49,882 nucleotides of DNA from a virus: IMG/VR virus record IMGVR_UViG_3300010396_000054, positions 1 through 49,882 of that record. One strand, given 5' to 3'. The notes beneath the pieces were generated by a model. The model was not told the DNA's origin, did no database searches, and worked only from the letters and a program-made list of their open reading frames with translations. Shown here piece by piece: positions 7,424 to 45,505 of the stretch (positions are counted from its first letter, which is position 1; the number at the start of each line of letters is the position of its first letter). The translations under genes were made by a program, and so were the position numbers.

Positions 7424-7525
7424 CGATGGTGGCTCCTGGTGGTGAGGATCGAAACTCATGGCACGCCTTGACCGAGGGGCGGGGCCGTCCCTATCGTCCA
7501 CCCTTTCTCGGGGTGGGAGATGTAC

Positions 7526-29403: not shown

Positions 29404-29417
29404 ACCCGCGCGCGGGT
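29404..29417 (-). terminator. GC-rich palindrome directly after the capsid stop codon
   Basis: The 14-base perfect palindrome ACCCGCGCGCGGGT starts at the stop codon of the major capsid gene. In RNA it could form a small hairpin in the first bases after the coding region. There is no T-run behind it, so intrinsic termination is weak at best. It may instead mark the 3' end of the abundant capsid message, or protect it from decay. Confidence 0.3.
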
Positions 29418-31437: not shown

Positions 31438-32406
31438 TCAGGCAGCCGAGCCGGAAGTGTTGAAGCGGCGCACATTGCGCTTGGTGGCGCCCGCGAAGTT
31501 GCGCATCCAAGCGTCGGGCGCGCCGCGGAACTCGGTGACCATGTGGCCGGTCGCGAGCCGCTTGGAGATCGGAACCAGCCTGCCGTCCGGAACGCCGGTC
31601 GGATTGGCGGCGGCCGAGAGGGCATCGGTCCTGATCTGGTCGGCAGCAATAGCGAAGGCGTCAGGCTTGAGACCGGAGAGATCGATGTCCTTCCAGCGAG
31701 CGCTGTGCTTCTGGAGTCCGCGCGCCATCCGCAGGTCGTAGGCAGCGGCGCTCTCGCCCGCGAGCGGCCGGGCGGCCTGATCGCCGAACTGGCCGCAGAT
31801 CGCGTCGTAGCGCGCCTGGAGATCGATCACCGCCTGATAGTCGGCCTCGGTCGTGGCCTTGGGGATGCGAGCGTCGAGTTCGCCCATTTTCGCCAGCACC
31901 GCCTTGACTTGATCGGCGGTGACGCCGATGAGCCTCATCGCCGCCGCGTCGGCCTTCTTGCGCTCCTCCTCTTCCTCCTTCTCGGCGTCCGCCTTATTCT
32001 TGGCGTCGGCCTTGGCCTTCTCCTCGCGCTTCTTCTCGTCCTCTTCCTCGGCGTCCTTGCGGGCCTTCTTGGCACGATCGGCCGCCATCTCCTTGGCCTC
32101 GCCCTTCTTCTCGAACTCGGAAGCGACTTCCTTCTCCTCGGCGTCGTGGCGCGACTTGTAGGAGGCGTCGTCGTCGTCGTCCTTGCGCGCAGAGAACTTG
32201 CTGCGGGCCGCGTCATCATCCGCCTTGCGGCGAGAGTCGGCCTCGGCCTTCTCCTTGGCTTCCGCATCGGCCTTGCGCCGGGCATCCTCTGCCTTGTTAC
32301 TCTCCTCGATCGCGTCCAGGCGCGTGCAGGCGTCATCGACCTTCTTCGCGATGCCCGCGATGGCGTCGAGAATCTTCTTGCTGTCGTCGTCCTTGGTTTC
32401 CGGCAT
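31438..32406 (-). CDS. possible nested scaffold protein from internal start (322 aa)
   Basis: Inside the fusion gene an ATG at 32406 is preceded by GGAG at exactly eight bases, and the product would start MPETKDDDSKKILDAIAGIA. It would contain only the charged scaffold and C-terminal helical parts, without Nudix and protease. Lambda (C and Nu3) and related phages make scaffold in this way from an internal start in the protease gene. The in-frame start and ribosome site are seen; use is inferred. Confidence 0.45.
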   Translation of the reverse strand: MPETKDDDSKKILDAIAGIAKKVDDACTRLDAIEESNKAEDARRKADAEAKEKAEADSRRKADDDAARSKFSARKDDDDDASYKSRHDAEEKEVASEFEKKGEAKEMAADRAKKARKDAEEEDEKKREEKAKADAKNKADAEKEEEEERKKADAAAMRLIGVTADQVKAVLAKMGELDARIPKATTEADYQAVIDLQARYDAICGQFGDQAARPLAGESAAAYDLRMARGLQKHSARWKDIDLSGLKPDAFAIAADQIRTDALSAAANPTGVPDGRLVPISKRLATGHMVTEFRGAPDAWMRNFAGATKRNVRRFNTSGSAA

Positions 32407-33435
32407 GCTTGAATCTCCAATTGCTGTCGCGAGCACTCCGCTCGGCTCGCCGCCCTTATCCCAAACGCCGACTTGGCAGATGGCGAGGTGATCCACCAAT
32501 GCCGGCTTACCCTCGATGAGAAGCGGCGAACCGTCCTCCATCGTGATTCTCTGATCGCCTGTTCCGCTGAGCAGGACGCCGGGCGATGTCGACATCGGCC
32601 CGTTCGTCAGCGCTTCAACGGCGCGGTCGTCGTAGATTTTTGCGATCCCCCACACCTCATCTCCTTTGAGGTACGGCAGAACGATCGTGCCGACGACGCG
32701 GTTCTCGAATTCTTCGCTGTTCAACAATCCCTTCTCGGGGTGGAACATGATCACCGGGAGCCCGTTGCAGCGCGCCAGGAACTCCTCGGTCAGATAATTT
32801 TCCGGGCGGCGATAGACGAACTCCGCCTCGCGGATGATCTTCCCGTCGTCGTCCTTCTTGTCGCTCCGATAGCTGACGCCGGTGCCGGAAATCCGCAGCG
32901 CAAAGAGCGAGACGTTCTTGTAGCGCTGGGGAGAAGTCAGTTCCCCATCACGGATGGCGCGCGCAATGCCCAGTTCGTCCAGCGTCAGCTTGGCGAGCGC
33001 GATGCGGCACCCGGGATGAAGCGGCTCAGGCGGCTCATACGGAGGCGCCCACGCCCACGCGACATGCTCGGGCGAGTCCTTCGGACCAAGGACAGGAACG
33101 AACTCTTCCTCGGCACGAGCGATGAAGGTCGTGAAATCAACATCATCGACCGGCCCAGGCTCAACCGCTTGTCCCGGCGCAACGGGTGTCGGAACCGCGC
33201 CTGTCGTCTCGCGCGGCGCAACCCGGCGCGCCCACGGCTCAAGCTTCTTCTCTTCGAGAGAAACGCCCGCTTCCTCGCGCGTCTCGCGGATCGCGGCGGC
33301 AATGGCGGCCTCGCCGTCCTCAAGACGGCCGCCAGGGAACCCCCAGAAGCCTGGATAGTCGCCGCCGGGGCCGCGCTTCAGGAAGAGCGCCTTGCCTCCG
33401 GCGAGGATCATCGTTCCCGCCGCGCGTGTGGTCAC
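31438..33435 (-). CDS. Nudix hydrolase - capsid maturation protease (DUF2213) - scaffold fusion (665 aa)
   Basis: Three parts are visible. Residues 1-140 form a Nudix domain with the box GRLEDGEAAI (Gly36, x5, Glu42, x7, then REXREEAGV at 50-58) complete. Residues about 172-345 match the DUF2213 head protease: FHPEKG (231-236), MSTSPGV (Ser282/284) and DHLAIC (His316), as in Ser/His prohead proteases. Residues 345-500 are a highly charged Lys/Glu/Asp/Ala coiled coil, a scaffold-like stretch. The rest is helical. The protease would cut scaffold and capsid in prohead maturation, while Nudix enzymes hydrolyse nucleoside diphosphates linked to other groups. The fusion is unusual; the combined role is unknown. 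Confidence 0.8.
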   Translation of the reverse strand: MTTRAAGTMILAGGKALFLKRGPGGDYPGFWGFPGGRLEDGEAAIAAAIRETREEAGVSLEEKKLEPWARRVAPRETTGAVPTPVAPGQAVEPGPVDDVDFTTFIARAEEEFVPVLGPKDSPEHVAWAWAPPYEPPEPLHPGCRIALAKLTLDELGIARAIRDGELTSPQRYKNVSLFALRISGTGVSYRSDKKDDDGKIIREAEFVYRRPENYLTEEFLARCNGLPVIMFHPEKGLLNSEEFENRVVGTIVLPYLKGDEVWGIAKIYDDRAVEALTNGPMSTSPGVLLSGTGDQRITMEDGSPLLIEGKPALVDHLAICQVGVWDKGGEPSGVLATAIGDSSMPETKDDDSKKILDAIAGIAKKVDDACTRLDAIEESNKAEDARRKADAEAKEKAEADSRRKADDDAARSKFSARKDDDDDASYKSRHDAEEKEVASEFEKKGEAKEMAADRAKKARKDAEEEDEKKREEKAKADAKNKADAEKEEEEERKKADAAAMRLIGVTADQVKAVLAKMGELDARIPKATTEADYQAVIDLQARYDAICGQFGDQAARPLAGESAAAYDLRMARGLQKHSARWKDIDLSGLKPDAFAIAADQIRTDALSAAANPTGVPDGRLVPISKRLATGHMVTEFRGAPDAWMRNFAGATKRNVRRFNTSGSAA

Positions 33436-33965: not shown

Positions 33966-34046
33966 GTCCGTCCGATTTCCCTAACGCGAGGCAAGTGCGC
34001 TACCCTTCCCGGTTGCGCTCAATGCGGGCGCTTTCGGGAGGAGGTC

Positions 34047-34283
34047 ATGGTTACGATCTACGTGGTGGCGATGTGTTGGGTGCTCGGCCCTGCGGCCGGC
34101 ACATGCAACGTCGTGCGATCAACGGATTTCTATGAGAACCCGATCGTCAGTCTCGCAGCCTGCGAGCAGCTGCGGCGAATGTACGATCCGAAAAACCCCG
34201 ATGACGGCAAGCCAGTCCCGGGGATGACGGTCACCTATACCTGCCTGAAGCACGAGATTCAGGCGTGGGGACCGGCTCGGTAG
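34047..34283 (+). CDS. small secreted or membrane-anchored protein on opposite strand (78 aa)
   Basis: A strong GGGAGGAGG ribosome site precedes ATG by three or four bases. The product starts with a hydrophobic stretch (MVTIYVVAMCWVLGPAAG) that could be a signal or anchor, followed by cysteines (C10, C20, near NPIVSLAACEQL and VTYTCLKHE). It stands between two minus-strand capsid genes and ends by convergence with one of them; the two stop codons sit within GCCTAGGC. A moron-type accessory gene is likely. No family was recognised. Confidence 0.55.
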   Translation: MVTIYVVAMCWVLGPAAGTCNVVRSTDFYENPIVSLAACEQLRRMYDPKNPDDGKPVPGMTVTYTCLKHEIQAWGPAR

Positions 34284-34284
34284 C

Positions 34285-35112
34285 CTAGGCGACCTTCACC
34301 TGTTGCAGCTGCTCACGGCCTTTGGCCGTCAGCATCTCTGGCGCGACACGATTGATATCGCGGAGCGAGTAGAGCCAGGTGTAGAAGCATCGGCAGAAAG
34401 GCTCTTCCGAAGGTTTCGTGATCGCGTCGGTGTAGCCATCCGGCCCGACTTTGACGAAGTCCTTTTCCTGCGCCCAGGAGCCGCGGACGAGATAGATATG
34501 CTGGTCGCGTTCCTTGTGGTCTTCCCGAAAATTGTAGCCGGGCTGACGCCAGTGGGAATGCCAGACCCCCGCAATCGCTCCCGTGCCGACTGCCACGGTT
34601 TCCGACAAGGCGGCGGTGAGCTTGTGCCCCTGATCGATCATCACCCGACGCTCGACAAACGGCAGGTTCGCCAGCGCCTTTCGAACGTCGGACTTGACCT
34701 CGCGGCGCTCGACGACTTCGCTTCCGCCAGCGGGAATGCTCGTCGCCCATCCGGCAAAGCGGCGCAGCGTCTTCTCGACCATCTCATCGCGGTTCAGCTT
34801 GATGAGCGACGCGCTGGCAAGGATGCGTCGATCCAGCTCATCCCGGAGATGCGGCGCTACGTTCTGAAGCGTGTAGCGCGAAATGCCCGGGTGATGGCGA
34901 AGGATGTCGCCTCGCTCGATGAGCCGGCGGTAAATCGCCCGCATCGCATCCACCAGCATGTCCCGCAACTGAGCGGGGGGCATCATGCTTTGCTCGAGCG
35001 CCTCGCGGAGCCGCTGCATCCACAGGGCGACGCGTTCTTCGCTGTCAAAGCCGTGTTCGGTGATGTCCTCTACCGCAGCCGTGAGAACATCGTTGAAGCG
35101 CGGAGTAGCCAT
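34285..35112 (-). CDS. MuF-like head morphogenesis/minor capsid protein
   Basis: This 275-residue protein follows the portal gene and a small gene. N-terminal helices (ERVALWMQRLREALEQSMM, YRRLIERGDILRHHP) lead to a C-terminal region with GVWHSHWRQPGYNFREDHKE and EEPFCRCFYTWLY, the His/Cys/Trp pattern of the MuF-type capsid protein fold. Such minor capsid proteins sit at the portal vertex. Identification is by motif and order. Confidence 0.7.
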   Translation of the reverse strand: MATPRFNDVLTAAVEDITEHGFDSEERVALWMQRLREALEQSMMPPAQLRDMLVDAMRAIYRRLIERGDILRHHPGISRYTLQNVAPHLRDELDRRILASASLIKLNRDEMVEKTLRRFAGWATSIPAGGSEVVERREVKSDVRKALANLPFVERRVMIDQGHKLTAALSETVAVGTGAIAGVWHSHWRQPGYNFREDHKERDQHIYLVRGSWAQEKDFVKVGPDGYTDAITKPSEEPFCRCFYTWLYSLRDINRVAPEMLTAKGREQLQQVKVA

Positions 35113-35316
35113 TTAGAATGACGCTATGATCCTGTAGAGCGAGAACAAAGCGTCAAGCTGCGCCTCGTAGGCGGATATCGCCTCTAGGCGCGCAACCTCC
35201 GCTTTCTCGAATTCGCCCCGCCGGAGACAGTCCTGGACCCGGAGCAGGGCCTCGTGAGTGGTCTTGGCCGCCGTCGCCGCAGCGTTGATGGAGTCAACGA
35301 TGCGGCTGAGGGTCAC
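35113..35316 (-). CDS. small helical protein next to portal (67 aa)
   Basis: A GTG at 35316 overlaps the portal stop as GTGA. The product is all helix (DSINAAATAAKTTHEALLRV, EKAEVARLEAISAYEAQLDA) with a hydrophobic end FSLYRIIASF. It has no recognised family. Between portal and MuF genes it is likely an assembly or head accessory protein. Confidence 0.5.
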   Translation of the reverse strand: MTLSRIVDSINAAATAAKTTHEALLRVQDCLRRGEFEKAEVARLEAISAYEAQLDALFSLYRIIASF

Positions 35317-36845
35317 CGGGTAGCCCGCATGCGGTCGACGAGCCGGGCGATCTGATCGCTCGAGGAATTGGTCCGTCGCTTGCCGCGGTCCAGCATCCTC
35401 ACCACCGCCTCGTTGAACCCTTCCATGGCGTCCTGGGCCGCAAAGGGATGGCCCGGCTTCGGCTCCTCTAGGGGCATCGGCGGCACATAGTCAACCATCG
35501 CTTCGATGTCGAGGTTGAGCGGGTTGCTGAACAGGAACTCCATTTCGTTCATGTTGTCGGCGAACCACTGAACCAACGCGCCCTTGTTCTCCGGGTCCAG
35601 GTCGGGAAGCAATATCTGGACGGTGGCGATCAGGGCTTTCAGCTTGACATCGTCGACCTTGACCTTCTCGCTGTCCGGCTCCTCGAGGAAGGATGGCCAG
35701 ATCGCCTTGAATGAATTTTGCCAGCGATAGAAAGCCTGCTCGAATTTGACGTTCCGGTACTCCGGAAAGTCTTTCTGGATGGTCGCATAGAATTCCGGAT
35801 TCCAGGCCCGCAGTTGCGTGACCCGGTCCATGAAGGCATAGGGCTTTTCCATGCCTTCGCGGAACCGCTTCACCCACCGGGCGATCTCGCGCATGTCCTC
35901 GGAACCCTCCCCGAAGCCCTCGGCGAAGCTCTCCTGCGTCATGATCTTGGCCGGCATTCCAGCGCCCGCCGCGATATCCTCCAGAATGTTACGACGCGCC
36001 GTCGTCATGGCCGCATCGGTGTTCTGGAGGTTCAGCGTCTCTATCCCCTCGTCCTTCTCGATCGAGATGACGTTCCCCGTCGCTGCGGCCTGGATATAGG
36101 CCCGCTTGGTGGCGAAGAGGTTCTTCATGATGTTGTCGACGACGCTCCCGGCCGCCCGTAGCTTCGCGATGAAGACGCCCGCCTTCTGCGTCACCAGATC
36201 GTTCGTCTTCTGCGTCTGGATGTAGCTCTTCAGCGGATAGAGGGTGCGCTGGTAGACGCTGCGCCCGACGAAGCCATAGGCGCTGGACGTATAGCTGATA
36301 TAGATCGGCCGCTCATGCAGGAGAACGCAGGTGCGGCTGCGGTGGTACTTCCGGCCAGACACGACGATCTCCGTCGTATGCATGAAGTCCATCGCATTGG
36401 GGTTCTGGTTGAGGACCAAAGATCCCGCCGTATTCAGCGGGTCGAAGGAGTTGATGCTGATGTCGCTCTGCCAGATTTTGCGGATGTCGAGCGGCTTCTC
36501 GGTAGGCACCCCATCCTCGAGCAAGCCGAGCGAGGCAATCCCATAGACCCTGGACAGGCTGACGAGATCGGCGATCCTTCGGTCGCACTCGTCCTTGCGC
36601 CACTGGTCGAGGAACTGATCGCGCACCCGTTCTTCCGGGGAATCCGGGATGCTGATTTCCCGAGGCTGGGACTGCGCCATCTCGATGGGCTTGTCCGCCA
36701 GCTTCTCGCCCAGCGTGTGGTTGGTGTATATCAGCTTGCAGAGCTGATATGAAATTTCCGACCCCGGCTGAATATCGTCGGCATCCAGGAGTTCCTGAAG
36801 CACGGACCCCGTTCCGCTTGGGCCTATGACAACCGAGGTCGCCAC
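35313..36845 (-). CDS. portal protein (DUF1073-like)
   Basis: The 510-residue product has the portal pattern: FLDQWRKDECDRRIADLVSL, YGIASLGLLEDG, SINSFDPLNTAGSLV, LLHERPIYISYTSSAYGFVG, then SVYQRTLYPLKSYIQTQK and GMPAKIMTQESFAEGFGEGS, as in DUF1073 portals. The helical end WSFxxNPLNLDIEAMVDYVP lies near the tail. Portals form a ring at one capsid vertex for DNA entry and tail binding. Size and neighbours fit. Confidence 0.85.
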   Translation of the reverse strand: MATSVVIGPSGTGSVLQELLDADDIQPGSEISYQLCKLIYTNHTLGEKLADKPIEMAQSQPREISIPDSPEERVRDQFLDQWRKDECDRRIADLVSLSRVYGIASLGLLEDGVPTEKPLDIRKIWQSDISINSFDPLNTAGSLVLNQNPNAMDFMHTTEIVVSGRKYHRSRTCVLLHERPIYISYTSSAYGFVGRSVYQRTLYPLKSYIQTQKTNDLVTQKAGVFIAKLRAAGSVVDNIMKNLFATKRAYIQAAATGNVISIEKDEGIETLNLQNTDAAMTTARRNILEDIAAGAGMPAKIMTQESFAEGFGEGSEDMREIARWVKRFREGMEKPYAFMDRVTQLRAWNPEFYATIQKDFPEYRNVKFEQAFYRWQNSFKAIWPSFLEEPDSEKVKVDDVKLKALIATVQILLPDLDPENKGALVQWFADNMNEMEFLFSNPLNLDIEAMVDYVPPMPLEEPKPGHPFAAQDAMEGFNEAVVRMLDRGKRRTNSSSDQIARLVDRMRATR

Positions 36846-36849
36846 GGGA

Positions 36850-37026
36850 CTACTTCTTCACCGGCCCCGTTACGGGCGGGGGTGCGAACTCGCCGCACCA
36901 CTCGGCAGCATTCTTCTCAACGGCCGCAGGATAGCGCCGGCAGATGATGTGCTTCGGGACCGGGCGATCGTCGACCTTGGCGAATCGCGCGCCAAACCGG
37001 CAATTGGAACAGCTATCCGCCATCAT
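36850..37026 (-). CDS. cysteine-rich small protein, zinc-ribbon-like (58 aa)
   Basis: I found this frame by reading the gap; it starts with an ATG that overlaps the upstream TGA as ATGA. The text is MADSCSNCRFGARFAK, then HIICRRYPAAVEKNAAEWCG. The pairs CxxC, C and C are spaced as in a zinc-ribbon or metal-knuckle. Such small four-cysteine proteins often occur near phage packaging genes. Function unknown. Confidence 0.6.
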   Translation of the reverse strand: MMADSCSNCRFGARFAKVDDRPVPKHIICRRYPAAVEKNAAEWCGEFAPPPVTGPVKK

Positions 37027-37949
37027 GCCGCCTTGTCATAAGGGTTGAGCCGCGCCACAGTCTCGGCGAGCGCGGCATCGGAAGAAACCAAACTCGCATC
37101 CCCGGCTATCTCGATCCGATGCGAGAAATTCCACCAGTGATTCGGCCCGGCGCCACGAAGGGCCCAGGCCAGCACCGAGGCTTCATCGATCAGCCAGTCG
37201 TTGTCGGCGAAGGTCTTGGACCGTGGCGACATCTCGGCCAGGGCGAGTTCGTCCGCGCTGGTGACGATGTGCGTCTCGTCCCGGCGGTAGTGATCGACCA
37301 TCGCCAGATCGACCGTATTGCGGAACGGCAGATCCCGGTCCTTCACCACGGCGAAGGGATGAAGATGGAAGGCGCGGAGCACGACATTGCCACCCTCCTG
37401 GAAGTAGACCCCCCAGGGCAGGTGGCAGCGGCCCTCGCCCCAGAAGCACGACTTCGTGATCGAGTGAGCATGCCTGAGCGACCAGGCGAGCAGATCGCGT
37501 GACCGCATCGGCTTGACGAGCGATCGCCGGAGCCGGCTCGGCGCGAGGGTCCGCGTCCCGGATGCCACGATGGCGCGCGTCCCGGTTCGGAAGCGCCGCT
37601 CTGCTGCGACGAAGGCCTCGACAGAGACGAGCATGTCGGCGTTGAGGATCGCGACCCGCTCGCCCTTCTCGGCATTGTCCAGGGCCCTGCGGTGAGCCTC
37701 GGCGAAGGCGGTGTAGGGCGCGCCCGGCGCTGGCGGCGGGACGAGCGTCAGCTCATGCGCGCTCAGGGCTCTTGCGACCTCAACGGGCCGATCCGTCTGG
37801 ACGATGTACCGGACCCTGACGCTGCCGCGAAATTCGCGCTTCAGCTCGTCGAGAGCCGCGCGATGGCTGCGTAGGACGGGACCAAGGAAAAGCGAGACGT
37901 ACCAGTCACCCCAAGCGGGGACGGCGATGAGCCAGGAGCGGGTCTTCAT
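37023..37949 (-). CDS. glycosyltransferase-like protein A
   Basis: The start at 37949 overlaps the upstream stop as ATGA, giving 308 residues with MKTRSWLIAVPAWGDWYVSL. Text such as RVRYIVQTDRP, FAEAHRRALDNAEKGERVAI and LNADMLVSVEAF (Asn103-Ala-Asp-Met) is like the nucleotide-sugar binding strand and acidic motif of GT-A-type enzymes. A later region AWSLRHAHSITKSCFWGEGR and GPNHWWNFSHRIEI resembles a stretch of the larger protein 39383-40702, so both are related. It is the third gene of a glycan cassette. Donor and acceptor are unknown. Confidence 0.55.
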   Translation of the reverse strand: MKTRSWLIAVPAWGDWYVSLFLGPVLRSHRAALDELKREFRGSVRVRYIVQTDRPVEVARALSAHELTLVPPPAPGAPYTAFAEAHRRALDNAEKGERVAILNADMLVSVEAFVAAERRFRTGTRAIVASGTRTLAPSRLRRSLVKPMRSRDLLAWSLRHAHSITKSCFWGEGRCHLPWGVYFQEGGNVVLRAFHLHPFAVVKDRDLPFRNTVDLAMVDHYRRDETHIVTSADELALAEMSPRSKTFADNDWLIDEASVLAWALRGAGPNHWWNFSHRIEIAGDASLVSSDAALAETVARLNPYDKAA

Positions 37950-38695
37950 CGGAAGGCCTCGTATCTGAACTGCGAGACCCGCGGGATGAGGCTGCCGTAC
38001 TCGACGCCAACGAAGGGGCCGCGGGCGAGCTCGCACCCGTCAACCAGGATCACGGCGTCGCCGGTCGCGGCCATCTCGACGCGGACCCAGGAACGCTCCC
38101 AGCGGGCCATACCGACCGATGTGACGAACTCTCCGCCGAGGACCGAATACCAGTGATCATCTTCAAACAGCACGCCCACCGCGCGCCGGTCATAGACCAT
38201 GCCCGCGATCGCCGGCATCATGACCGCGCTGGGGGCGCCGGCGGCGAAGCCGACAAAGACCGCCCGCCGGTCTTTGCCTTCGACCAGCACCCGCGCCTGC
38301 ATGACGCGCACGTCGCTGGCAGTCGTCCAGAGCCGGGCGTCATCGACCCGGAAGCCGGCCTGCGCCGCCCCGTCCGCATCGACGTGGTGCGGCGCCCGCT
38401 CCATGCGCATCGCGTGCTTCACCAGCGCTGACTTGCGCTGCTCGTCGGTGAGCTTTACCGCGTGGTGCATCGGCTCGAGGAAATCGACGAAGCTCTTGAT
38501 GTGGCTGCCGAGGAATTCGGCCGGGGTTACGAGACACCAGCTATCGGCATCCGGGCCACAGGCGCGGTAATAGACCTCGTTCACCGCATCGAAGAAGAAT
38601 TGCCCGACATGGGCGGGCTCGACCAGCCCGATGGGGCAGATGATGTCCGCGACCGAAGGGCCTATTTCCTCTGCGCCCATGCGAGGATGGATCAT
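37946..38695 (-). CDS. unknown protein with lectin-like beta-sandwich C-terminus (249 aa)
   Basis: The ATG at 38695 overlaps the methyltransferase stop as ATGA. The N-terminal half is helical (VGQFFFDAVNEVYYRACGPD). From about residue 120 a beta-rich part (DDARLWTTASDVRVMQARVL, GKDRRAVFVGFAAGAPSAVM, VLFEDDHWYSVLGGEFVTSV) resembles concanavalin-type sandwiches that bind glycans. No family was named. It sits between glycosyltransferase and methyltransferase genes, so a glycan-related role is inferred. Confidence 0.45.
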   Translation of the reverse strand: MIHPRMGAEEIGPSVADIICPIGLVEPAHVGQFFFDAVNEVYYRACGPDADSWCLVTPAEFLGSHIKSFVDFLEPMHHAVKLTDEQRKSALVKHAMRMERAPHHVDADGAAQAGFRVDDARLWTTASDVRVMQARVLVEGKDRRAVFVGFAAGAPSAVMMPAIAGMVYDRRAVGVLFEDDHWYSVLGGEFVTSVGMARWERSWVRVEMAATGDAVILVDGCELARGPFVGVEYGSLIPRVSQFRYEAFR

Positions 38696-39357
38696 CGCCG
38701 CGGCCCGCAGCAGACGGCGAGCAGGTAATGGCACATTGGCCCGAAGCCGGTGTGTAGAGTCTCGTCGTTCATGCCGAACGGCAGGACGTAGGTGAACCAC
38801 TCTCGCAGATCGGCGACGAACACCGCCTGTGTCTTGCAGTTGACGTGCCCGGCAAGGCTTTGCGGCGAGGCATGCGCCTGACTTTCCCGGCTGGGCATGC
38901 CGATGACGGCGGCGGATTCATCCATGAGGCTGCCGCAGAGGTTCCGCATGAACGCGCCCTCGTCCTCGCCCTCAATGTGTTCAAGCACGTCGAGCGCCAC
39001 GGCGGCATTGAAGCTGCGGTCCTCCACCACGCCGCCGCGAACCAGATCATGGACGCGGAAGTCGATCTCGTCCCGGCGGTCATGCGTGCGCGCATCGCGG
39101 ATGAAGGCGGGGTCGAAGTCGACCGCCACCACTTTCCCGGCGACTGTAAGGAGCGGCGTGGCGAAGCCGTCGCCGCAACCGATCTCCAGAACCCGGGCCG
39201 CGCCGGCGACCATCTTCGCCGCGAACTTGTACCGGGCCAAGGTGAAGGCGAGCCGCTTGGGATCATGGTCGTAAGAGTGCGTCGCCATCATGCCGAGCGT
39301 CTGCGTGCCGCGCAGCATGCGGTGCTCTACGAGCACGTCGTATTGGGGCTCTTTCAT
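38692..39357 (-). CDS. class I SAM-dependent methyltransferase
   Basis: The 221-residue protein has motif I VLEIGCGDGF (near residues 55-65), an acidic end of strand 2 (VVAVDFDPAF), and a motif around FNAAVALDVLEHIEGEDEGA, all typical of class I methyltransferases of the UbiE/small-molecule type. A SD site of AGGAG type precedes the ATG. In this cassette it may methylate a sugar on a glycan. It could also act on DNA or another small molecule. Substrate unknown. Confidence 0.8.
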   Translation of the reverse strand: MKEPQYDVLVEHRMLRGTQTLGMMATHSYDHDPKRLAFTLARYKFAAKMVAGAARVLEIGCGDGFATPLLTVAGKVVAVDFDPAFIRDARTHDRRDEIDFRVHDLVRGGVVEDRSFNAAVALDVLEHIEGEDEGAFMRNLCGSLMDESAAVIGMPSRESQAHASPQSLAGHVNCKTQAVFVADLREWFTYVLPFGMNDETLHTGFGPMCHYLLAVCCGPRR

Positions 39358-39382
39358 CCTGCTGCTCCTGCTCGTCCTGCTG

Positions 39383-40702
39383 CTACTTGATCAGCCCGCT
39401 CCGATAGAGCTTCCCTCGCTGCTGATCGACGATGACCCGCGCTGCGGGCAAGGTCGATGGCTCCGGTTCCGGCTCGTTCCTTCCGATTCCGCACGCCGCG
39501 AGCGCGTCCTCGACGTTCTCATGCGGCTGAACTCCGGCAGCGAAATGGTCGCCCTTCCCGAAATTCATCGATTTGAGCGCTTCCCGCGGCACGCTGATGA
39601 CGGTCGTACCTTCGACCACCACGACGGCACGGTCCTTGCCGATCCCCGCCACATGATTGCCGAATGCGCGATTGCGCAGGGTCCAGCGTTCACGAGTGGG
39701 AACGGAACTTTGTTCGAGCGCGGCGTCGGCTTTGGCTTCGGCCTGCCGCCATCCTCCGCCTTCAATATCGGAGCCGTGGACATAGACGCGAGCGGAGCAC
39801 AACGCCTGGCGAAGAGGATCGGTTGTCGGATGCTCCCTGGCCCGCCGCCATATCTCGGCGATGGTCCCGCTCATCGGCCGGCGAGAGAACCCGAACTCCT
39901 TCTCGCTGGCCGTCGTGACGTGCAGGAACTCATCGCTGTCGGTGACGACGTAGTACTGTTCCGGGCGCGTAAGGTTCCACCAGGAATAATGACCATCGAT
40001 CGTCCAGTCGAGCACGGGGCTCGCATCATGGGGCCAAGGGAACCTGAAATCGATCAGCGCCGGCTCCCAATAGATGCTGTGCGTCACGATCCCGTCCGGC
40101 GCCGCTCGCCACCACGGGCCTCCCAGAACGTCATCGCCATAGGCCGGCTCTTCGGCGCTCCAGCAGCGAATCTGGCTGTGCATCAGCTCGCCGGCGCAGG
40201 CGGCCGCCAGTTCCCGCGGCTTGATTGAGACCGCGACCCGCTTGCCGAACCCGAAGGCTTCCCGCACAGCTTCCTCGCCGATCCGGAGGCCGAGGGTCAT
40301 CACCATCCGCCGACCGGGCTTTGCCAAGGAGAGCAACGTAGACAGACCGCCATCAGCGAAAACGCTATCGGCAAAGACCGGGACCGTTATGGCCCGCTCG
40401 CGCTCGGCCAGGCCCAGCATCGCGCGGTGTCCCCGGCTCATCGTCACATGCCGGCTCTCCGTGAGCGGAGAGGGCTGGAAGAAGATCGGGTGGAACTCGG
40501 CGTAACGCTTGGCCTCGCGGACCGATGGTCGGCTGGCGAAGTCGTCCCAATCCTCGCGCCGCGTCCAGACGAGAAAGACCGCGCGGCGATTGACCGAGGG
40601 AAGATTACCGGGCGCCAGCAGGGTCGGGAGCGCGATCTCGGTGAAGCGGCGCACGCCGGCTGCTCCCCAAGCCGGGACCATCAGCACGACGGGCGGGATC
40701 AT
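39383..40702 (-). CDS. glycosyltransferase-like protein B (439 aa)
   Basis: The protein starts MIPPVVLMVPAWGAAGVRRF. Like protein A it has VPAWG at the N-terminus and a SIYWEPALIDFRFPWPHDAS, DGHYSWWNLTRPEQYYVVTD region that matches the WWNF stretch of A. FLVWTRREDWDDFASRP and GRRMVMTLGLRIGEEAV lie where nucleotide-sugar binding strands would. A DSDEF motif (near 260) is a possible metal site. The C-terminal half is helical and charged. I read it as a second, larger member of the same family. The assignment rests on pattern, not on a search. Confidence 0.5.
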   Translation of the reverse strand: MIPPVVLMVPAWGAAGVRRFTEIALPTLLAPGNLPSVNRRAVFLVWTRREDWDDFASRPSVREAKRYAEFHPIFFQPSPLTESRHVTMSRGHRAMLGLAERERAITVPVFADSVFADGGLSTLLSLAKPGRRMVMTLGLRIGEEAVREAFGFGKRVAVSIKPRELAAACAGELMHSQIRCWSAEEPAYGDDVLGGPWWRAAPDGIVTHSIYWEPALIDFRFPWPHDASPVLDWTIDGHYSWWNLTRPEQYYVVTDSDEFLHVTTASEKEFGFSRRPMSGTIAEIWRRAREHPTTDPLRQALCSARVYVHGSDIEGGGWRQAEAKADAALEQSSVPTRERWTLRNRAFGNHVAGIGKDRAVVVVEGTTVISVPREALKSMNFGKGDHFAAGVQPHENVEDALAACGIGRNEPEPEPSTLPAARVIVDQQRGKLYRSGLIK

Positions 40703-40703
40703 G

Positions 40704-40775
40704 TCAGCCGCGCGCGAATCCCAGCCAGATGAGGCCGATGGCCAAGAGAGCCGTCCACAGAAAGGTCTCGCTCAT
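40704..40775 (-). CDS. 23-residue membrane micropeptide
   Basis: A short frame starts at ATG following GAGCAGGAGC and reads MSETFLWTALLAIGLIWLGF then ends in ARG. It is one transmembrane segment. The stop is one base before the ATG of glycosyltransferase-like protein B, so it is tightly coupled to it. No family is known. It may anchor or accompany the larger protein. Confidence 0.45.
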   Translation of the reverse strand: MSETFLWTALLAIGLIWLGFARG

Positions 40776-40794
40776 GCGCCCGCTCCTGCTCGCC

Positions 40795-41079
40795 CTACTG
40801 CTTCTCTCGTGGCGCCCTCTTGTGGCTGGCGCGACGCGATGACTGTCTGCTGTAATACTCGCGGGTCACCTTGAGCACGGCCCTTCGCAAATCGTCTGGC
40901 AGCTCTATCTCATCGACCCCAAAGCTCGCCCGCAGGCGAGCCTCGATCTCCTGGCTCAGCGTCCGCTCAGGTGTGCCGTCACGCATCCGCGCGGCCTCCA
41001 GCTGGTCGCGCAGTCCCTGGGACAGGCGAAAGCCGATGGTGGTGCTTTTCCGATCCTTCTCCGCAACTTTTCTGGGCAT
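40795..41079 (-). CDS. ribbon-helix-helix (Arc-type) DNA-binding protein
   Basis: The 94-residue protein has STTIGFRLSQGLRDQLEAAR, a beta-strand then helix, and TLSQEIEARLRASF, the second helix of the RHH fold. The tail is basic (SRQSSRRASHKRAPREKQ). RHH proteins of this type regulate phage or plasmid operons. It sits just after the terminase pair, so it could control late genes. The SD region upstream is unusually purine-rich. Confidence 0.75.
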   Translation of the reverse strand: MPRKVAEKDRKSTTIGFRLSQGLRDQLEAARMRDGTPERTLSQEIEARLRASFGVDEIELPDDLRRAVLKVTREYYSRQSSRRASHKRAPREKQ

Positions 41080-41294
41080 ATCCTGTTTCTCCTACTGCTC
41101 CTGCTTCTCGCACTCCCGCTGATCTTACTTTCCTCGACCAGCCGCCGCACCAGCCGGCACAGCGCGCGGCTGTTGTCGGTCTCGTCGGGCCGGCGCTCGG
41201 CGGCGATCTCCTCGTCGGTAGCGAAGAACCGGACGGCACCCGGCTCTATCGGCTGGGCGAAGAAGTCGGCCCATGCCTCAATGGTGGCGCTCAC
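40956..41294 (-). CDS. small protein of the EAWA-FFA pair, copy 1 (extended C-terminus)
   Basis: GTG at 41294 starts VSATIEAWADFFAQPIEPGA and continues VRFFATDEEIAAERRPDETD. This is clearly related to the gene at 41351-41536 (EAWAEFFATPVSPHHFRFFA). The frame stays open past the expected end and overlaps the RHH gene by 124 bases in another frame. The extra part is basic and Ser/Arg-rich, which suggests a lost stop codon by an indel. No family is known for either copy. Confidence 0.5.
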   Translation of the reverse strand: MSATIEAWADFFAQPIEPGAVRFFATDEEIAAERRPDETDNSRALCRLVRRLVEESKISGSARSRSSRRNRICPEKLRRRIGKAPPSAFACPRDCATSWRPRGCVTAHLSGR

Positions 41295-41350
41295 GCCACG
41301 ATGCCGATAACCAGAAGACCCCACCAGATCGCCGGCTCCCATGTGCTCTG

Positions 41351-41536
41351 CTAGGCCCGAGAAAGCGGCTCGGCGATGAGGAGCCTCTTCATCAAGCGAA
41401 AGAGCGCCGGGCCGCTGCTGCCTTCATCCGCCCTGCACTCCGCCGCGATTTCCTCGTCAGTGGCGAAGAATCGGAAATGATGAGGCGACACCGGCGTGGC
41501 GAAGAACTCGGCCCAGGCTTCGGCATCGTGCATCAT
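41351..41536 (-). CDS. small protein of the EAWA-FFA pair, copy 2 (61 aa)
   Basis: The ATG at 41536 overlaps the terminase stop as ATGA. The product is MMHDAEAWAEFFATPVSPHH followed by FRFFATDEEIAAECRADEGS and a helical end with LFRLMKRLLIAEPLSRA. It is a normal-length version of the gene next to it. Position directly after large terminase suggests a packaging-module accessory. No function is known. Confidence 0.55.
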   Translation of the reverse strand: MMHDAEAWAEFFATPVSPHHFRFFATDEEIAAECRADEGSSGPALFRLMKRLLIAEPLSRA

Positions 41537-42996
41537 TGAAATTCCGCCGCATCCCCCAAATTCAGGTAGACGCCGTAACACCAAGCGTCGAAAAGATCGT
41601 CGTCAACCATATCCTTTGAGCTTGGCCGGAAATTCAAGACCTGAGAGAGAAGGTGATTGCGCGTCACGCCCTTGTAGGTCTTAACCTTATCATACGCTTC
41701 AGCGCCCCATTTTACCCAGCCTCGGTTGACATAGCGGCTCGCGTTGATGCCGCGCTCCGTCTTGCCCAGTGCCGTAAGTTTAGATTCAATCGGGCGCGCC
41801 GGCAGGTTTTTGGATGCCGCCTGCTGCAAAAGGATAGAACCTGACGCCTTATCCTCGATCCAAGCACCCAGCGATCCCATCCGTGCGCCGCACGCCCCAG
41901 CAAGCCGCTCAAGTTCCGCAAAGACGCCGGGAAGCCAGTGCTCCAGAGATGCGCCCTCGATCTGGATCAGATCCCAGCCCACAATCACCATCGGCCAGCC
42001 GCCGACATACCGATCCGGGTTCCCTCGGGCGAATTCCAGCTTCGCAGTATCATCTACCGCCCAGTAGACGACGGCCGTACCATCGTTCGTCTTCCCGGTC
42101 TTAACCGCCGTGTCGATCGTCGCCATCACGGCATCGCAGCGACGCGGCACGGGAATGGCCATCCCCTCGACCAGCATGTCATCGGCGGTGAAGAATGATC
42201 CCTCAAGCGGTCTGGGGCGCTGCTCATAAAGCGCCGCCCAATCATACTCGCTTTGTTTCCGCGTTGCGGCCAAGACCTCCAGCGGATACTTTTCGGGCCA
42301 TAGCGCGCGCCCATCATCGCCGATGGCAGGAAAGATCAGCTTCTCCCACTTCTGGCCGCCCGCTACTTCAGCGTTAAGCAGACGCCCCGCAAGATCATCC
42401 TCGTGCCAGCGCGTCATGATCAGCACCACTGCGCCATTCTTTTCCAGGCGCGAATAGGCCGTAGAGGTGTACCAACTCCACACCCGTTCCCGGGTGCTCT
42501 CGCTCTCAGCCTCGACCCTGTCCTTTACGGGGTCGTCGATGATTAGGATATCGGCGCCTCGACCGGTGATCGCGGTTCCTACTCCCGCCGAGACGTACCC
42601 CCCGCCTTGAGAAGTGTGCCAGCGGTCCTTGGCCTGGCTGTCCTGCGCCAAGACAGTATCCGGGAAAAGGGCGCGGTATTCGTCAGAACTGACGAGGTTG
42701 CGGACCTCGCGGGAAAAATCCCACGACAACTCGGACCCATAGCTGGCGCTGATGATCTGGCTCGATGGCTCCTTGCCGAGAACGAGGGCTGGAAACCGCC
42801 TTGAGACGAGCTCGCTCTTTCCGTGTCTGGGTGGGGCGAAGATCATCAGCCTCAGCAGGTCCCGGCGGATCACCGCCTCGAGCGCTTCGGCTATCTTGTA
42901 ATGGAACTCTACGGCCGAGTAGCCGCGTTTCGTGTACTCAGTGAACGCGACGAGCGACGCTCTCGCCTTCGCCCGAGATTCCAGTTCCCGCCTCAC
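41533..42996 (-). CDS. terL: terminase large subunit
   Basis: I place the start at GTG 42996 (487 residues), where GAGGGAGA lies just upstream; longer in-frame sequence exists but it overlaps the small subunit strongly. Motifs: Walker A APPRHGKSELV near residue 55-62, ASYGSELSWDFS, Walker B ADILIIDDPVKD, and MTRWHEDDLAG. The C-terminal nuclease part has VMATIDTAVKTG and then VVGWDLIQIEG with acidic residues. This enzyme pumps and cuts DNA in packaging. It overlaps the small subunit by about 59 bases. Confidence 0.9.
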   Translation of the reverse strand: MRRELESRAKARASLVAFTEYTKRGYSAVEFHYKIAEALEAVIRRDLLRLMIFAPPRHGKSELVSRRFPALVLGKEPSSQIISASYGSELSWDFSREVRNLVSSDEYRALFPDTVLAQDSQAKDRWHTSQGGGYVSAGVGTAITGRGADILIIDDPVKDRVEAESESTRERVWSWYTSTAYSRLEKNGAVVLIMTRWHEDDLAGRLLNAEVAGGQKWEKLIFPAIGDDGRALWPEKYPLEVLAATRKQSEYDWAALYEQRPRPLEGSFFTADDMLVEGMAIPVPRRCDAVMATIDTAVKTGKTNDGTAVVYWAVDDTAKLEFARGNPDRYVGGWPMVIVGWDLIQIEGASLEHWLPGVFAELERLAGACGARMGSLGAWIEDKASGSILLQQAASKNLPARPIESKLTALGKTERGINASRYVNRGWVKWGAEAYDKVKTYKGVTRNHLLSQVLNFRPSSKDMVDDDLFDAWCYGVYLNLGDAAEFQ

Positions 42997-43303
42997 TCTC
43001 TCCCTCGCTGACAAAAGCAGCGAGTTCCTCGTCGGTGTAGCTGAGAATGTCGCGTCGGATGTTCGCATTGATCTCTTGCGCCGGCTTGCCCCAGCCGCGG
43101 TCCAGAATGCTGTTATTGGCAGCCACACGCGCTGCGTGAGGCGCCTTGGAATCCCCCGCAATCTTGATTAAGTTGGCGATCGCTTGCGCCGTATAGGCCC
43201 GAGCGAGGTCGCGGACATCGCCCAACTGTTTGGGGCGCCCTCCGGGGTTTCCCGACTGTCCTTTCTTGAAGCTCGTCGAGCGAATGCCGCCCTTACCTGC
43301 CAT
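42938..43303 (-). CDS. terminase small subunit (DUF5681-type)
   Basis: The 121-residue protein has GIRSTSFKKGQSGNPGGRPK, the DUF5681 opening common in small terminase-like proteins, then a helical body (LARAYTAQAIANLIKIAGDS, AARVAANNSILDRGWGKPAQ). It precedes the large subunit, the standard order. It would recognise the packaging site. The region just upstream has inverted repeats that may be that site or a promoter. Confidence 0.75.
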   Translation of the reverse strand: MAGKGGIRSTSFKKGQSGNPGGRPKQLGDVRDLARAYTAQAIANLIKIAGDSKAPHAARVAANNSILDRGWGKPAQEINANIRRDILSYTDEELAAFVSEGESEAGTGISGEGESVARRVH

Positions 43304-43315
43304 TGTCTGTTACAC

Positions 43316-43432
43316 CCTGTTCTCAGGCGATGCCACCTCGCTGAATGCGAGGTATTTACCAGAACGCACACCCATTTCGGGAACCACTCTGAAACGTAGT
43401 GTGTTTGCTGCGGGTTTACCCTGTCACCAGGG
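43316..43432. promoter_or_regulatory. inverted repeats upstream of terminase genes (promoter or packaging site candidate)
   Basis: In the gap between the divergent terminase and 43451 genes lie three inverted repeats: CCTG-TTCT-CAGG (43316-43327), ACCTCGC-TGAAT-GCGAGGT (43335-43353, seven-base stem), and CCCTG-TCAC-CAGGG (43419-43432). The outer two share ACCCTGT...CAGG, so they may bind the same protein. No clear sigma70 boxes are seen. It could be a regulator site for the packaging operon or the pac/cos zone. Confidence 0.4.
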
Positions 43433-43450
43433 GTTTGGGAGGATCGAGCG

Positions 43451-43591
43451 ATGGTCGCCTATCACGTCAGCACGCCGGTTGATCTCGCCTGGGCGGCGTG
43501 GAAGCTCGTGGGGATCGTGGGCGCCGCGTATGCGCTGGGGTGTGTGACGGGATTTGTCGGAACCGTGCTGTGGGCGGTGCTGTCAGGCTAG
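43451..43591 (+). CDS. small membrane protein (46 aa), opposite strand
   Basis: The frame starts with ATG eight bases after GGGAGG and gives MVAYHVSTPVDLAWAAWKLV followed by a hydrophobic segment (GIVGAAYALGCVTGFVGTVL). Its end overlaps the convergent cysteine-rich gene by nine bases. It is a single- or double-pass membrane peptide, possibly a holin-like or exclusion protein. Only membrane character is supported. Confidence 0.5.
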   Translation: MVAYHVSTPVDLAWAAWKLVGIVGAAYALGCVTGFVGTVLWAVLSG

Positions 43592-43759
43592 CTCGTCTTC
43601 CACCACAATTCCCGTGTAGCAGCAGGAATCGAGATGGTTACCGCCATGCCGCTCCCCGCAGGCTTTGCAGCGGCGCGTGGCGAGATTGTCGGCGCGCTCG
43701 GATTGAAGCTCTAGAACTCGGGCGCGGATGGCGTCGAAATCGTCGGCGGCGTGAATCAT
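43583..43759 (-). CDS. small zinc-finger-like protein (58 aa)
   Basis: The ATG at 43759 overlaps the upstream gene's TGA as ATGA. The text MIHAADDFDAIRARVLELQS is helical, then RRCKACGERHGGNHLDSCCY has a CxxC and a CC pair with histidines, as in a zinc knuckle. It ends with TGIVVEDELA. The knuckle is seen; the function is unknown. Confidence 0.5.
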   Translation of the reverse strand: MIHAADDFDAIRARVLELQSERADNLATRRCKACGERHGGNHLDSCCYTGIVVEDELA

Positions 43760-43956
43760 TTGCCCCGCAACACGAACCCGAACGGAACCGTCTCGGGCAT
43801 TCGATAGAGAGGCACACCAGAAGCGTCTAACAATCCCGTCTTGACCGGAGACTTATCCATCTCCTGGCAGACATCGGCCGTTACCGATGGCCCGCACCCC
43901 AACCCATCGTCATGGACGAAAGCGCCCTGCGGAATAGCGACATACCGCGACATCAC
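43756..43956 (-). CDS. unknown small protein (66 aa)
   Basis: A GTG at 43956 overlaps the upstream stop as GTGA. The product (MSRYVAIPQGAFVHDDGLGC, then CQEMDKSPVKTGLLDASGVP and YRMPETVPFGFVLRGK) is a small beta-type protein with two cysteines. No family is recognised. It lies in the small-gene string just downstream of the divergent control region. Confidence 0.4.
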   Translation of the reverse strand: MMSRYVAIPQGAFVHDDGLGCGPSVTADVCQEMDKSPVKTGLLDASGVPLYRMPETVPFGFVLRGK

Positions 43957-44099
43957 GGGTTTCTCATGGGCGGCGCTACCCTCTCCACCTCGACCACCAC
44001 CGGAATCCCCTTGTGCAGCTTATAGCGGCGCGTCTCGACGTATTTGCCGCCGAGGAATGATTCAACGGGAAGCGGGATCGCGGGTTTCGGATCGGTCAT
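43953..44099 (-). CDS. unknown small protein (48 aa), first gene of minus-strand string
   Basis: The frame begins at ATG 44099 and gives MTDPKPAIPLPVESFLGGKY followed by ETRRYKLHKGIPVVVEVERV. It is the first gene after the divergent control region, so its leader starts in the repeated DNA there. It ends by a GTGA overlap with the next gene. Function unknown. Confidence 0.45.
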   Translation of the reverse strand: MTDPKPAIPLPVESFLGGKYVETRRYKLHKGIPVVVEVERVAPPMRNP

Positions 44100-44112
44100 C
44101 TCAGCCTCGGGA

Positions 44113-44172
44113 AATGCGTAAATCTTTCTCTTTTCGCTGGACTTTTGGGGTAAGAATTACGCATTATACCCC
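44113..44172. promoter_or_regulatory. divergent operator with two nested inverted repeats
   Basis: Between genes reading away from each other lies AATGCGTAA (44113-44121) with its reverse complement TTACGCATT (44157-44165), and the shorter pair GGGGTA (44147-44152) / TACCCC (44167-44172). Perfect nine-base and six-base arms suggest repressor sites. A possible -10 box TATACC (44165-44170) with a weak TTTTGG 16 bases upstream falls in the same zone on the plus strand. The HTH gene 250 bases away is a natural candidate binder. Confidence 0.5.
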
Positions 44173-44194
44173 TTCGCGGCGATGGAGGGAAAAG

Positions 44195-44416
44195 ATGTTC
44201 ACCCGCCAGGAAACCCGCCAGGGCCGAACCTTCACCTTCGAGACCAACGGCTACCGCTTCCACGTCCTGCACTCAATCTCAGGGCGCTGGACGGTCTATC
44301 AAATGGAACTGGAGCCCCACGGCAAGACGTTTCTGGACGCCAACGCGCTGATAGCGCACTATCCTGTCGCCTATCGCACGTTGAGGGACATCGCCCGTGA
44401 GGAGATGGCCCTATGA
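44195..44416 (+). CDS. unknown small protein (73 aa) upstream of HTH gene
   Basis: The ATG at 44195 follows GGAGG by about six bases, a good site. The product (MFTRQETRQGRTFTFETNGY, then FHVLHSISGRWTVYQMELEP and ALIAHYPVAYRTLRDIAREE) is mixed beta then alpha. It could be an accessory regulator. It is the first plus-strand gene after the operator and lies ten bases before the HTH gene. Confidence 0.55.
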   Translation: MFTRQETRQGRTFTFETNGYRFHVLHSISGRWTVYQMELEPHGKTFLDANALIAHYPVAYRTLRDIAREEMAL

Positions 44417-44425
44417 GGGGGTTGC

Positions 44426-44608
44426 TTGACCGGCCGGGACTTCAAAGCGTGGCGCAAGCGCTTGGGACTGACCCAGCAAGAAGCGGCAGATGCCTTGGGC
44501 GTGTGCCGCAAGACGATCGTGAATTACGAGAAGAGCAAGAAGCCGCTCAAAGCCCATATCCCGCTGGCGTGCGATGCGATTATCCAGAGGCTGATGCGTG
44601 AGCAATAA
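44426..44608 (+). CDS. Cro/CI-type (XRE) HTH transcription regulator (60 aa)
   Basis: The TTG start follows GAGGGGG. The 60-residue protein has MTGRDFKAWRKRLGLTQQEA, then ADALGVCRKTIVNYEKSKKP, the two-helix HTH of the XRE family. It is about the size of Cro. It probably binds the divergent operator just upstream. A role in a lysogeny or early/late switch is inferred; a repressor of CI length was not seen here. Confidence 0.8.
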   Translation: MTGRDFKAWRKRLGLTQQEAADALGVCRKTIVNYEKSKKPLKAHIPLACDAIIQRLMREQ

Positions 44609-44638
44609 GGGCGATTTTCGGGAACGCGTCGCACTCAG

Positions 44639-44655
44639 CGGCCGAAAATCGGCCG
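44639..44655. terminator. probable bidirectional terminator stem
   Basis: CGGCCGA-AAA-TCGGCCG is a perfect seven-base stem with a three-base loop in the gap between convergent genes (HTH on plus, NusG-like on minus). A second, weaker stem CCTT-CCCGCG-AAGG follows. There is no long T-run, so efficiency is uncertain, but the location fits a terminator for both sides. Confidence 0.5.
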
Positions 44656-44678
44656 AGGGCCTTCCCGCGAAGGGTGGT

Positions 44679-45281
44679 TCACGCAGCCGCTTCGGCCAAC
44701 GCGACCTGTTCCACCTTCACTTCTACAGGAACCTCGCGGCCGAAGCAATAGCCTTTCAACTCAAGCCTCGCCCCCATCACCTTCACCACGGGCATAAACG
44801 CACCCGCATGAGCCCCGTAAAGAATTTGCACGATATCTTTCTCTTGGAACCGCCTCTGTTCCGGGGGTTGGTATTTGTCCACCAGCCCGTCCGGATCGGC
44901 CTTCTCGATCCATCCCTCGACAAAGCCCGGAGGCACTACGATAGGCTCGCCCAGCGCCGAGACGATGCCCCTGACGGCAGGGGCCATCGCGCGGGCCTCA
45001 AGCTGGTAGGGCGCTGTACGGAACAATCGCTCAGCCGTGGGGATGATAGGTTCGCCGATAAACACATAGCCGGGCCAGATCGGCTCGACCAGCACTTGAG
45101 ACGCTTTCGGAGGCGGCATTTCCCGAAGCGGCAGGAACGCCGCAATCCCCAGCCGCAGATACTGCCGGTGGGCGATGCGCTCGGCTCTCGGGACGGTAAT
45201 CGCGACATACCACTGAGAGGGCAATGCCGGCGAAGGCAGCGGCGGCTCAATGACCATGTGCTTGCTGAGGCTCCCGTCCAT
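44679..45281 (-). CDS. NusG-like transcription antitermination protein (NGN + KOW)
   Basis: The 200-residue protein has an NGN domain at about 23-125 (QWYVAITVPRAERIAHRQYL, VLVEPIWPGYVFIGEP) and a KOW domain at about 145-195 (FQEKDIVQILYGAHAGAFMP, VVKVMGARLELKGYCFGREV). This is the NusG/RfaH layout. Encoded by a phage and placed just upstream of the structural string in the direction of transcription, it is a likely specialised antiterminator for late genes. Bulk NusG of the host is usually 170-180 residues. Paralog status is inferred. Confidence 0.75.
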   Translation of the reverse strand: MDGSLSKHMVIEPPLPSPALPSQWYVAITVPRAERIAHRQYLRLGIAAFLPLREMPPPKASQVLVEPIWPGYVFIGEPIIPTAERLFRTAPYQLEARAMAPAVRGIVSALGEPIVVPPGFVEGWIEKADPDGLVDKYQPPEQRRFQEKDIVQILYGAHAGAFMPVVKVMGARLELKGYCFGREVPVEVKVEQVALAEAAA

Positions 45282-45283
45282 AT

Positions 45284-45478
45284 TTAATCACCGCGTCTTT
45301 GCTCTTCGATCGCCTCGCGCACAACGTCGTTGTACCACTCCGCGACGATGGCGCAGAGAAGGGCTACCGCGACAGCAGCAAGGCTCCCGTATCCACCCCA
45401 TACGTCCCGAAACTCGTGAAGCAAGAGACCCAGAACGCCGAACCTGATGAACTGGCGATCTAATCCTTCAGTCGTCAT
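45284..45478 (-). CDS. small membrane protein (64 aa)
   Basis: The product reads MTTEGLDRQFIRFGVLGLLL, then GGYGSLAAVAVALLCAIVAE and a charged end with REAIEEQRRGD. One or two hydrophobic helices are present. It lies two bases before the NusG-like start. Membrane location is clear; a holin-type role is possible but not shown. Confidence 0.5.
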   Translation of the reverse strand: MTTEGLDRQFIRFGVLGLLLHEFRDVWGGYGSLAAVAVALLCAIVAEWYNDVVREAIEEQRRGD

Positions 45479-45505
45479 TTCCGCCTCCCGTCCAGGTGTC
45501 GAGAA

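Follow-up and report, generated by a model that had tools for sequence, protein, structure and literature searches.

Among described systems, those closest to the locus considered here are found in mycobacteriophages. Phages of cluster O (Corndog) carry a set comprising an O-methyltransferase (gp35), glycosyltransferases (GTs; gp36-37) and an N-acetylglucosaminyltransferase (gp38), for which modification of the capsid by both methyl groups and glycans has been proposed (PMC4351075); the corresponding gene layout was verified in the Catdawg, Firecracker and Dylan records. Capsid glycosylation is reported in the Corndog cluster, with gp38 named as essential for it (PMC12363180). The GT gp110 of Che8-type mycobacteriophages is reported to be needed for capsid glycosylation, and glycans are reported on both the capsid and the tail tube of mycobacteriophages (PMC12619734, PMC12363180).

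Here, a comparable set of genes is described in a 49,882-base virus record of an uncultured phage (IMGVR_UViG_3300010396_000054), referred to in its entirety as the window. Four genes encoding a glycosyltransferase (GTa), a methyltransferase (MT), a protein of unproven fold (LEC) and a second glycosyltransferase (GTb) are located on one strand (minus) between the genes for the terminase large subunit (TerL) and the portal protein. With some reserve, we favor the reading that this cassette is expressed late and serves to attach a methylated glycan to a virion protein. The cassette is real and recurrent; the concept behind it has precedent, but the enzyme family is new and occurs in other phages.

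Proteins encoded by the cassette

Neither GTb nor GTa gave a significant Pfam or PHROG match, or a tblastn match in 50,697 phage records. An AlphaFold model of GTb, built with an alignment of 12 family sequences (that of the window and 11 from IMG/VR), reached a pLDDT of 91.5 and a pTM of 0.91, and its Foldseek matches in the PDB were mostly GT-A glycosyltransferases at a probability of 1.0, including AvpGT, chondroitin polymerase, WrtF and TarP. On this model, GTb can confidently be predicted to be a GT-A fold glycosyltransferase; because overall TM-scores were modest (mostly 0.3-0.45), the search conveys the fold and a broad activity rather than the sugar. Residue D105, part of an N-A-D motif that falls short of a full DXD, is invariant in 12 of 12 family members and is present in GTa, which also keeps the V-T-x-x-D-E motif near the C-terminus and has the P-W-G and A-D columns in common with GTb. 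A first-pass annotation, made by a model from the sequence of the window, had described the two GT-like proteins as related, a relationship that emerged by profile methods only: pairwise BLASTP gave no signal (E 0.22), hhalign of the GTb family against GTa returned a probability of 89.6% (E 1.9e-6) in a collinear match across 258 columns, and a six-frame hidden Markov model search of the window with the GTb family retrieved GTa (E 4.6e-8). GTa is accordingly read as a remote homolog of GTb, with its GT-A assignment made by homology only. No relative was found when GTa itself served as the query, and two pattern scans of genome contigs, which used short peptides and may miss distant homologs, yielded no cellular homologs.

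The class I methyltransferase named in the same annotation was borne out. MT matches Methyltransf_25 (4.5e-11, above the curated cut-off) and Methyltransf_11 (6.7e-11), is predicted to be a class I S-adenosylmethionine (SAM)-dependent methyltransferase with a conserved SAM-binding domain, and is closest in kind to small-molecule methyltransferases.

By contrast with this outcome, the lectin-like identity suggested for LEC was not confirmed. The protein has no significant Pfam or PHROG match; its AlphaFold model is poor (pLDDT 44.7) and unusable because there are too few homologs, and Foldseek with that model returned nothing below 1e-3, the best match being a CBM9 sugar-binding domain at a non-significant E of 0.07. 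The fold search that had been proposed as a check was thus positive for GTb, as a GT-A protein, and gave no sugar-binding fold at significance for LEC. The first 40 residues of LEC show weak similarity (E 0.01) to the C-terminal end of a Vibrio phage protein whose remaining parts resemble a tail spike; this hints at LEC as a possible component of the virion. A Kelch identity was considered for residues 158-186, which matched designed six-copy Kelch proteins at an E of 1e-8 and natural Kelch proteins at 0.8 or worse, and was rejected because a 29-residue stretch is multiplied by the repeats of the target.

The first-pass description of an overlapping cluster inside the structural operon, between terminase and portal, proved accurate. 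Overlaps of 4 nt join MT to LEC, LEC to GTb, and the GTb stop to a 58-residue open reading frame (ORF) whose own stop lies 4 nt ahead of the portal start. Within 34000-45600, a single sigma-70-like match was found, on the downstream side of the cassette, and terminator-like matches are no more frequent than in shuffles. Given the overlaps, a promoter-like match only downstream and terminator-like matches at chance level, the cassette region is likely to be read as one transcript. A compositional signal of horizontal insertion was also considered and set aside: the cassette has a G+C content of 0.65-0.66, compared with 0.60 for TerL and portal, yet its GC3 (0.78-0.84) falls within the range of other genes in the window.

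Recurrence of the cassette and of the GTb family

The same gene kinds occur together in independent contigs at 35-66% protein identity, and because of this joint recurrence the cassette is more than a chance assembly. In L001 (IMG/VR 3300040757_000019), it occupies the same place as in the window, with TerL followed by a small ORF, MT (53%), a PhyH oxygenase (Pfam 7e-12), LEC (40%), GT1 (66%) and GT2. L062 (3300044714_000074) derives from a related phage, whose portal is 56% identical and which has homologous head, tail and baseplate proteins. There, LEC (35%), an SDR, MT (47%) and a GT (57%, to GTb) stand together ahead of the sheath gene, two further family GTs lie between the head-morphogenesis and protease genes, and the TerL-portal gap is without a cassette. 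These two sets are the only ones in which LEC homologs were found. In L087, a GT likewise precedes the sheath gene. An SDR encoded in the tail operon of the window is 32% identical (E 1e-28) to that of the L062 cassette and is probably, judging from this similarity, a detached member of the set. Since these placements differ, the set appears stable in content and mobile in position inside the late operon.

Two observations concern the partner genes. In the window, ORF 7312-8529 (plus strand) was considered as a possible PhyH oxygenase and gave no significant family match (no Pfam match; BLAST E 0.033 to the L001 PhyH protein); its C-terminal stretch resembles PhyH, and the reading frame seems to shift near 7640. 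In the L062 virus, G001:55803-58296 (L078) holds C5-cytosine methyltransferase-like and Gp37/Gp68-like ORFs, typed by eye, among family GTs of the head operon.

The search for the gene set in other phages, likewise proposed in the first-pass annotation, was therefore successful in L001 and L062, where LEC-MT-GT sets are present, and unsuccessful among portal relatives with both TerL and portal in view, as homologs of MT, GT or LEC were detectable in 0 of 40. Six other portal-relative records searched with the diverse alignment A5 gave no match. Across the 40 relatives, the TerL-portal gap varies from 340 to 4133 bp, so that the direct placement of packaging genes ahead of the portal, which the first-pass annotation gave for known phages, holds only loosely here and, given this variability within the phage group, extra genes in the gap are not unusual in themselves. 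In the window, it is the presence of a glycan set and the length of the gap, 4.7 kb, that are unusual. Among the relatives, the larger gaps encode small proteins, beta-rich by eye; in L005, L006, L012, L025 and L028, such proteins occur in varying copies (VGT...PTSYE...PHATHK type) and are possibly head decoration proteins.

Protein-based scans, which did not select by position, identified 13 further IMG/VR viruses with the GTb family (L083 being counted with L082 because of common sequence). In all 13, the strand that carries the family genes also has a gene for the head, connector, packaging or tail no more than about 5 kb away. The neighbors are TerL (L001), the major head protein and head-tail adaptor (L054, L082), the head-tail adaptor (L055), the portal (L056), portal and adaptor (L084), the major head protein (L058), the sheath (L062, L087), tail proteins (L057, L069, L090) and Hc1 with the tape measure protein (L092), L057 being the weakest case. 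Their partners are variable and include MT, GT-B-like proteins (by eye) and a match to the PHROG alpha-2,3-sialyltransferase. A protein with this match, or a similar one, stands just before the GT genes and between structural genes in L054, L055, L056, L058, L082 and L084.

In the family tree, many of whose deep forks are unresolved, the GTb of the window groups with L001 GT1 and the L062 and L087 GTs (100/99). The GT of L058, which adjoins the major head protein of another phage type, groups with L001 GT2 and a GT of the L062 virus (support 99/99), and this grouping across phage types points to exchange of GTs between unrelated phages. On sequence grounds, the GTb family can be regarded as a new enzyme family without a Pfam or PHROG model.

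Structural operon and neighboring genes

Pfam and PHROG searches identify the minus strand of the window as a tailed-phage structural operon (Table 1), which also codes for a conserved tail protein and a tape-measure-like protein. Every cassette ORF listed in the first-pass annotation was recovered on this strand at its stated position, including the hydrophobic one of 23 residues.

Table 1. Features of the structural operon and cassette in the window
Feature	Position	Strand	Basis
TerL, terminase large subunit, upstream cassette boundary	41533-43161	-	phrog_38, 5e-87
ORF of 94 residues upstream of GTa, weakly Arc-repressor-like	40795-41079	-	phrog_228, 0.034
Putative hydrophobic ORF of 23 residues directly before GTa	40704-40775	-	ORF list, sequence
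GTa, 439 residues, predicted divergent GTb-family (GT-A fold) glycosyltransferase	39383-40702	-	
MT, 221 residues, predicted class I SAM-dependent methyltransferase	38692-39357	-	
LEC, 249 residues, probably beta-rich, fold unproven	37946-38695	-	
GTb, 308 residues, predicted GT-A fold glycosyltransferase	37023-37949	-	
Cys-containing ORF of 58 residues	36850-37026	-	weak phrog_15838, 0.006
Portal protein, downstream cassette boundary	35313-36845	-	phrog_146, 3e-47; Phage_portal_3, 1.4e-10
Head-morphogenesis protein	34285-35112	-	
NUDIX hydrolase domain fused to DUF2213/head maturation protease-like domain	31438-33435	-	
Major capsid protein	29417-30436	-	
Sheath	23859-25511	-	
RmlD/epimerase-like SDR in tail operon	22818-23369	-	Pfam Epimerase, 2.1e-9

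The NUDIX-protease fusion is also kept in the L062 virus (L078 homolog). Just after TerL, at 41125-41584 (minus strand), two neighboring short ORFs about 242 bp apart encode peptides that resemble each other, EAWADFFAQPIEPGAVRFFATDEEIAAERR and EAWAEFFATPVSPHHFRFFATDEEIAAECR, and seem to have arisen by tandem duplication. A NusG-like protein (44679-45281, minus strand; Pfam 1.7e-5; phrog_6386 transcription antiterminator, 1.5e-10), encoded upstream of the terminase genes, could drive the long late operon. At the fiber end, the opposite strand encodes an Acyl_transf_3 membrane acyltransferase (1355-2446, plus strand; 3.9e-26), for which acylation of a host-surface or virion glycan is possible, and the window also codes for a pectate-lyase-like fiber.

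Proposed virion glycosylation, rival explanations and known systems

The GT-A fold of GTb, the kinship of GTa, the methyltransferase, the overlapping operon run and the recurrence near structural genes make modification of the virion, as first proposed from the window alone, a reasonable lead. This reading relies mainly on gene position, backed by the Corndog precedent. During particle assembly, cytoplasmic GTb and GTa would take nucleotide-sugars, made by the host and perhaps with the help of the phage SDR, and build a short glycan that MT would cap or decorate with methyl groups; LEC may be a virion protein carrying or holding the glycan, or an accessory binding factor. From the location of the genes inside the structural operon, the most likely acceptor would be a virion protein of the head, neck or tail. 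The parts of this scheme that we infer are co-transcription, the acceptor, the sugar, the order of reactions and the role of LEC.

Several considerations weigh against virion modification. It has been drawn from genes, not from particles, and the relatives are metagenomic contigs, mostly fragments. Viral contigs L061, L065 and L066 carry members of the MT family as well, in places other than structural regions. Much of a phage genome consists of structural genes, so position alone is modest evidence, and soluble enzymes of this kind, both GTs and methyltransferases, take part in building lipopolysaccharide (LPS) as well. The acyltransferase of the window is a typical surface-glycan modifier. 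As LPS is made by similar enzymes and this acyltransferase is present in the window, modification of the host surface is the main rival, although a rather unlikely one; late in infection, a methylated sugar would be attached to the LPS or capsule of the host, blocking superinfection or keeping progeny off debris. GT, methyltransferase and SDR, together with the PhyH oxygenase and sialyltransferase-like GTs of the relatives, are typical enzymes of surface-glycan pathways, the acyltransferase and the pectate-lyase-like fiber suggest that the phage handles surface glycans, and Pelagimyophage GTs, which lie among structural and tail-fiber genes of marine phages, have been interpreted as LPS modifiers (PMC7029224). 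Against this stand the late structural operon position in 14 of 14 viruses and the Corndog-type sets of the same layout, which are reported to act on the capsid (PMC12363180). In addition, the GtrA flippase (PF04138) is absent from the window and L062 records and no integrase was found in the window record, which may be incomplete, so that no sign of lysogenic conversion is seen.

Two further explanations appear less probable still. Phage GTs can glycosylate DNA, according to literature cited in one report (PMC12619734), and the C5-cytosine methyltransferase-like ORF of the L062 virus lies between two family GTs; GTa and GTb might on this account glycosylate modified bases of phage DNA. We consider such hypermodification very improbable, as the thymidylate-synthase/hydroxymethylase family (PF00303) is absent from the window and the L062 virus (records that may be incomplete), the cassette is placed with particle genes rather than replication genes, and MT most resembles small-molecule methyltransferases. 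It is improbable, to a lesser degree, that the genes are neutral or selfish accessory genes (morons) tolerated without a virion role. The variable TerL-portal gap with its other gene content in the 40 relatives, and the location of the L062 cassette and the L087 GT in the tail operon, would fit such a view; however, divergent members retain the catalytic-type columns and their open frames, and LEC, MT and GT stay together despite relocation.

If virion modification is correct, a testable general question arises as to why a particle that never passes a Golgi should be coated, for example for resistance to proteases or binding, or for tuning of adsorption. A GT-A family without a Pfam or PHROG model could also help to annotate some of the so far unknown genes of viral metagenomes. 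More tentatively, this unnamed and so far phage-only GT family might be specialized on virion proteins in several phage types and pass from one unrelated phage to another in late-operon modules, where its partners would be methyltransferase, SDR, oxygenase and sialyltransferase-like proteins, LEC being a dedicated particle glycan carrier or holder in one lineage.

Compared with known systems, the window shares phage-encoded glycosyl transfer with the GtrABC serotype-conversion systems, but its GTs are predicted to be soluble GT-A proteins and belong to the late operon. Pelagimyophages resemble it in having GTs among structural genes and differ in that theirs are mainly of the GT8 family, many within a host-recognition cluster. 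The Che8-type case differs by gene position, as Maravista, a related F1 phage, has its GT genes near the 3' end, outside the structural operon. The Corndog-type set comes closest, with one methyltransferase and several GTs in a single overlapping run inside the head-gene operon. Its slot, however, lies between portal and protease rather than between TerL and portal, the three Catdawg GTs have no detectable homology to the GTb family (hhalign probability 0.1-0.9%), its methyltransferase is TylF-type whereas that of the window is Methyltransf_25/11, and no LEC was seen in that set. Virion sugar is reported for the Corndog type (PMC12363180) and is predicted from gene content for the window. With this precedent, the earlier designation of the cassette as an undescribed system was too strong. 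As the GTs are without detectable homology and the methyltransferase families differ, the window represents the same arrangement reached through other families rather than membership in the Corndog type. If the virion is indeed the acceptor, glycosylated particles would be no peculiarity of mycobacteriophages, and environmental tailed phages would have arrived at the strategy independently, by means of different enzymes.

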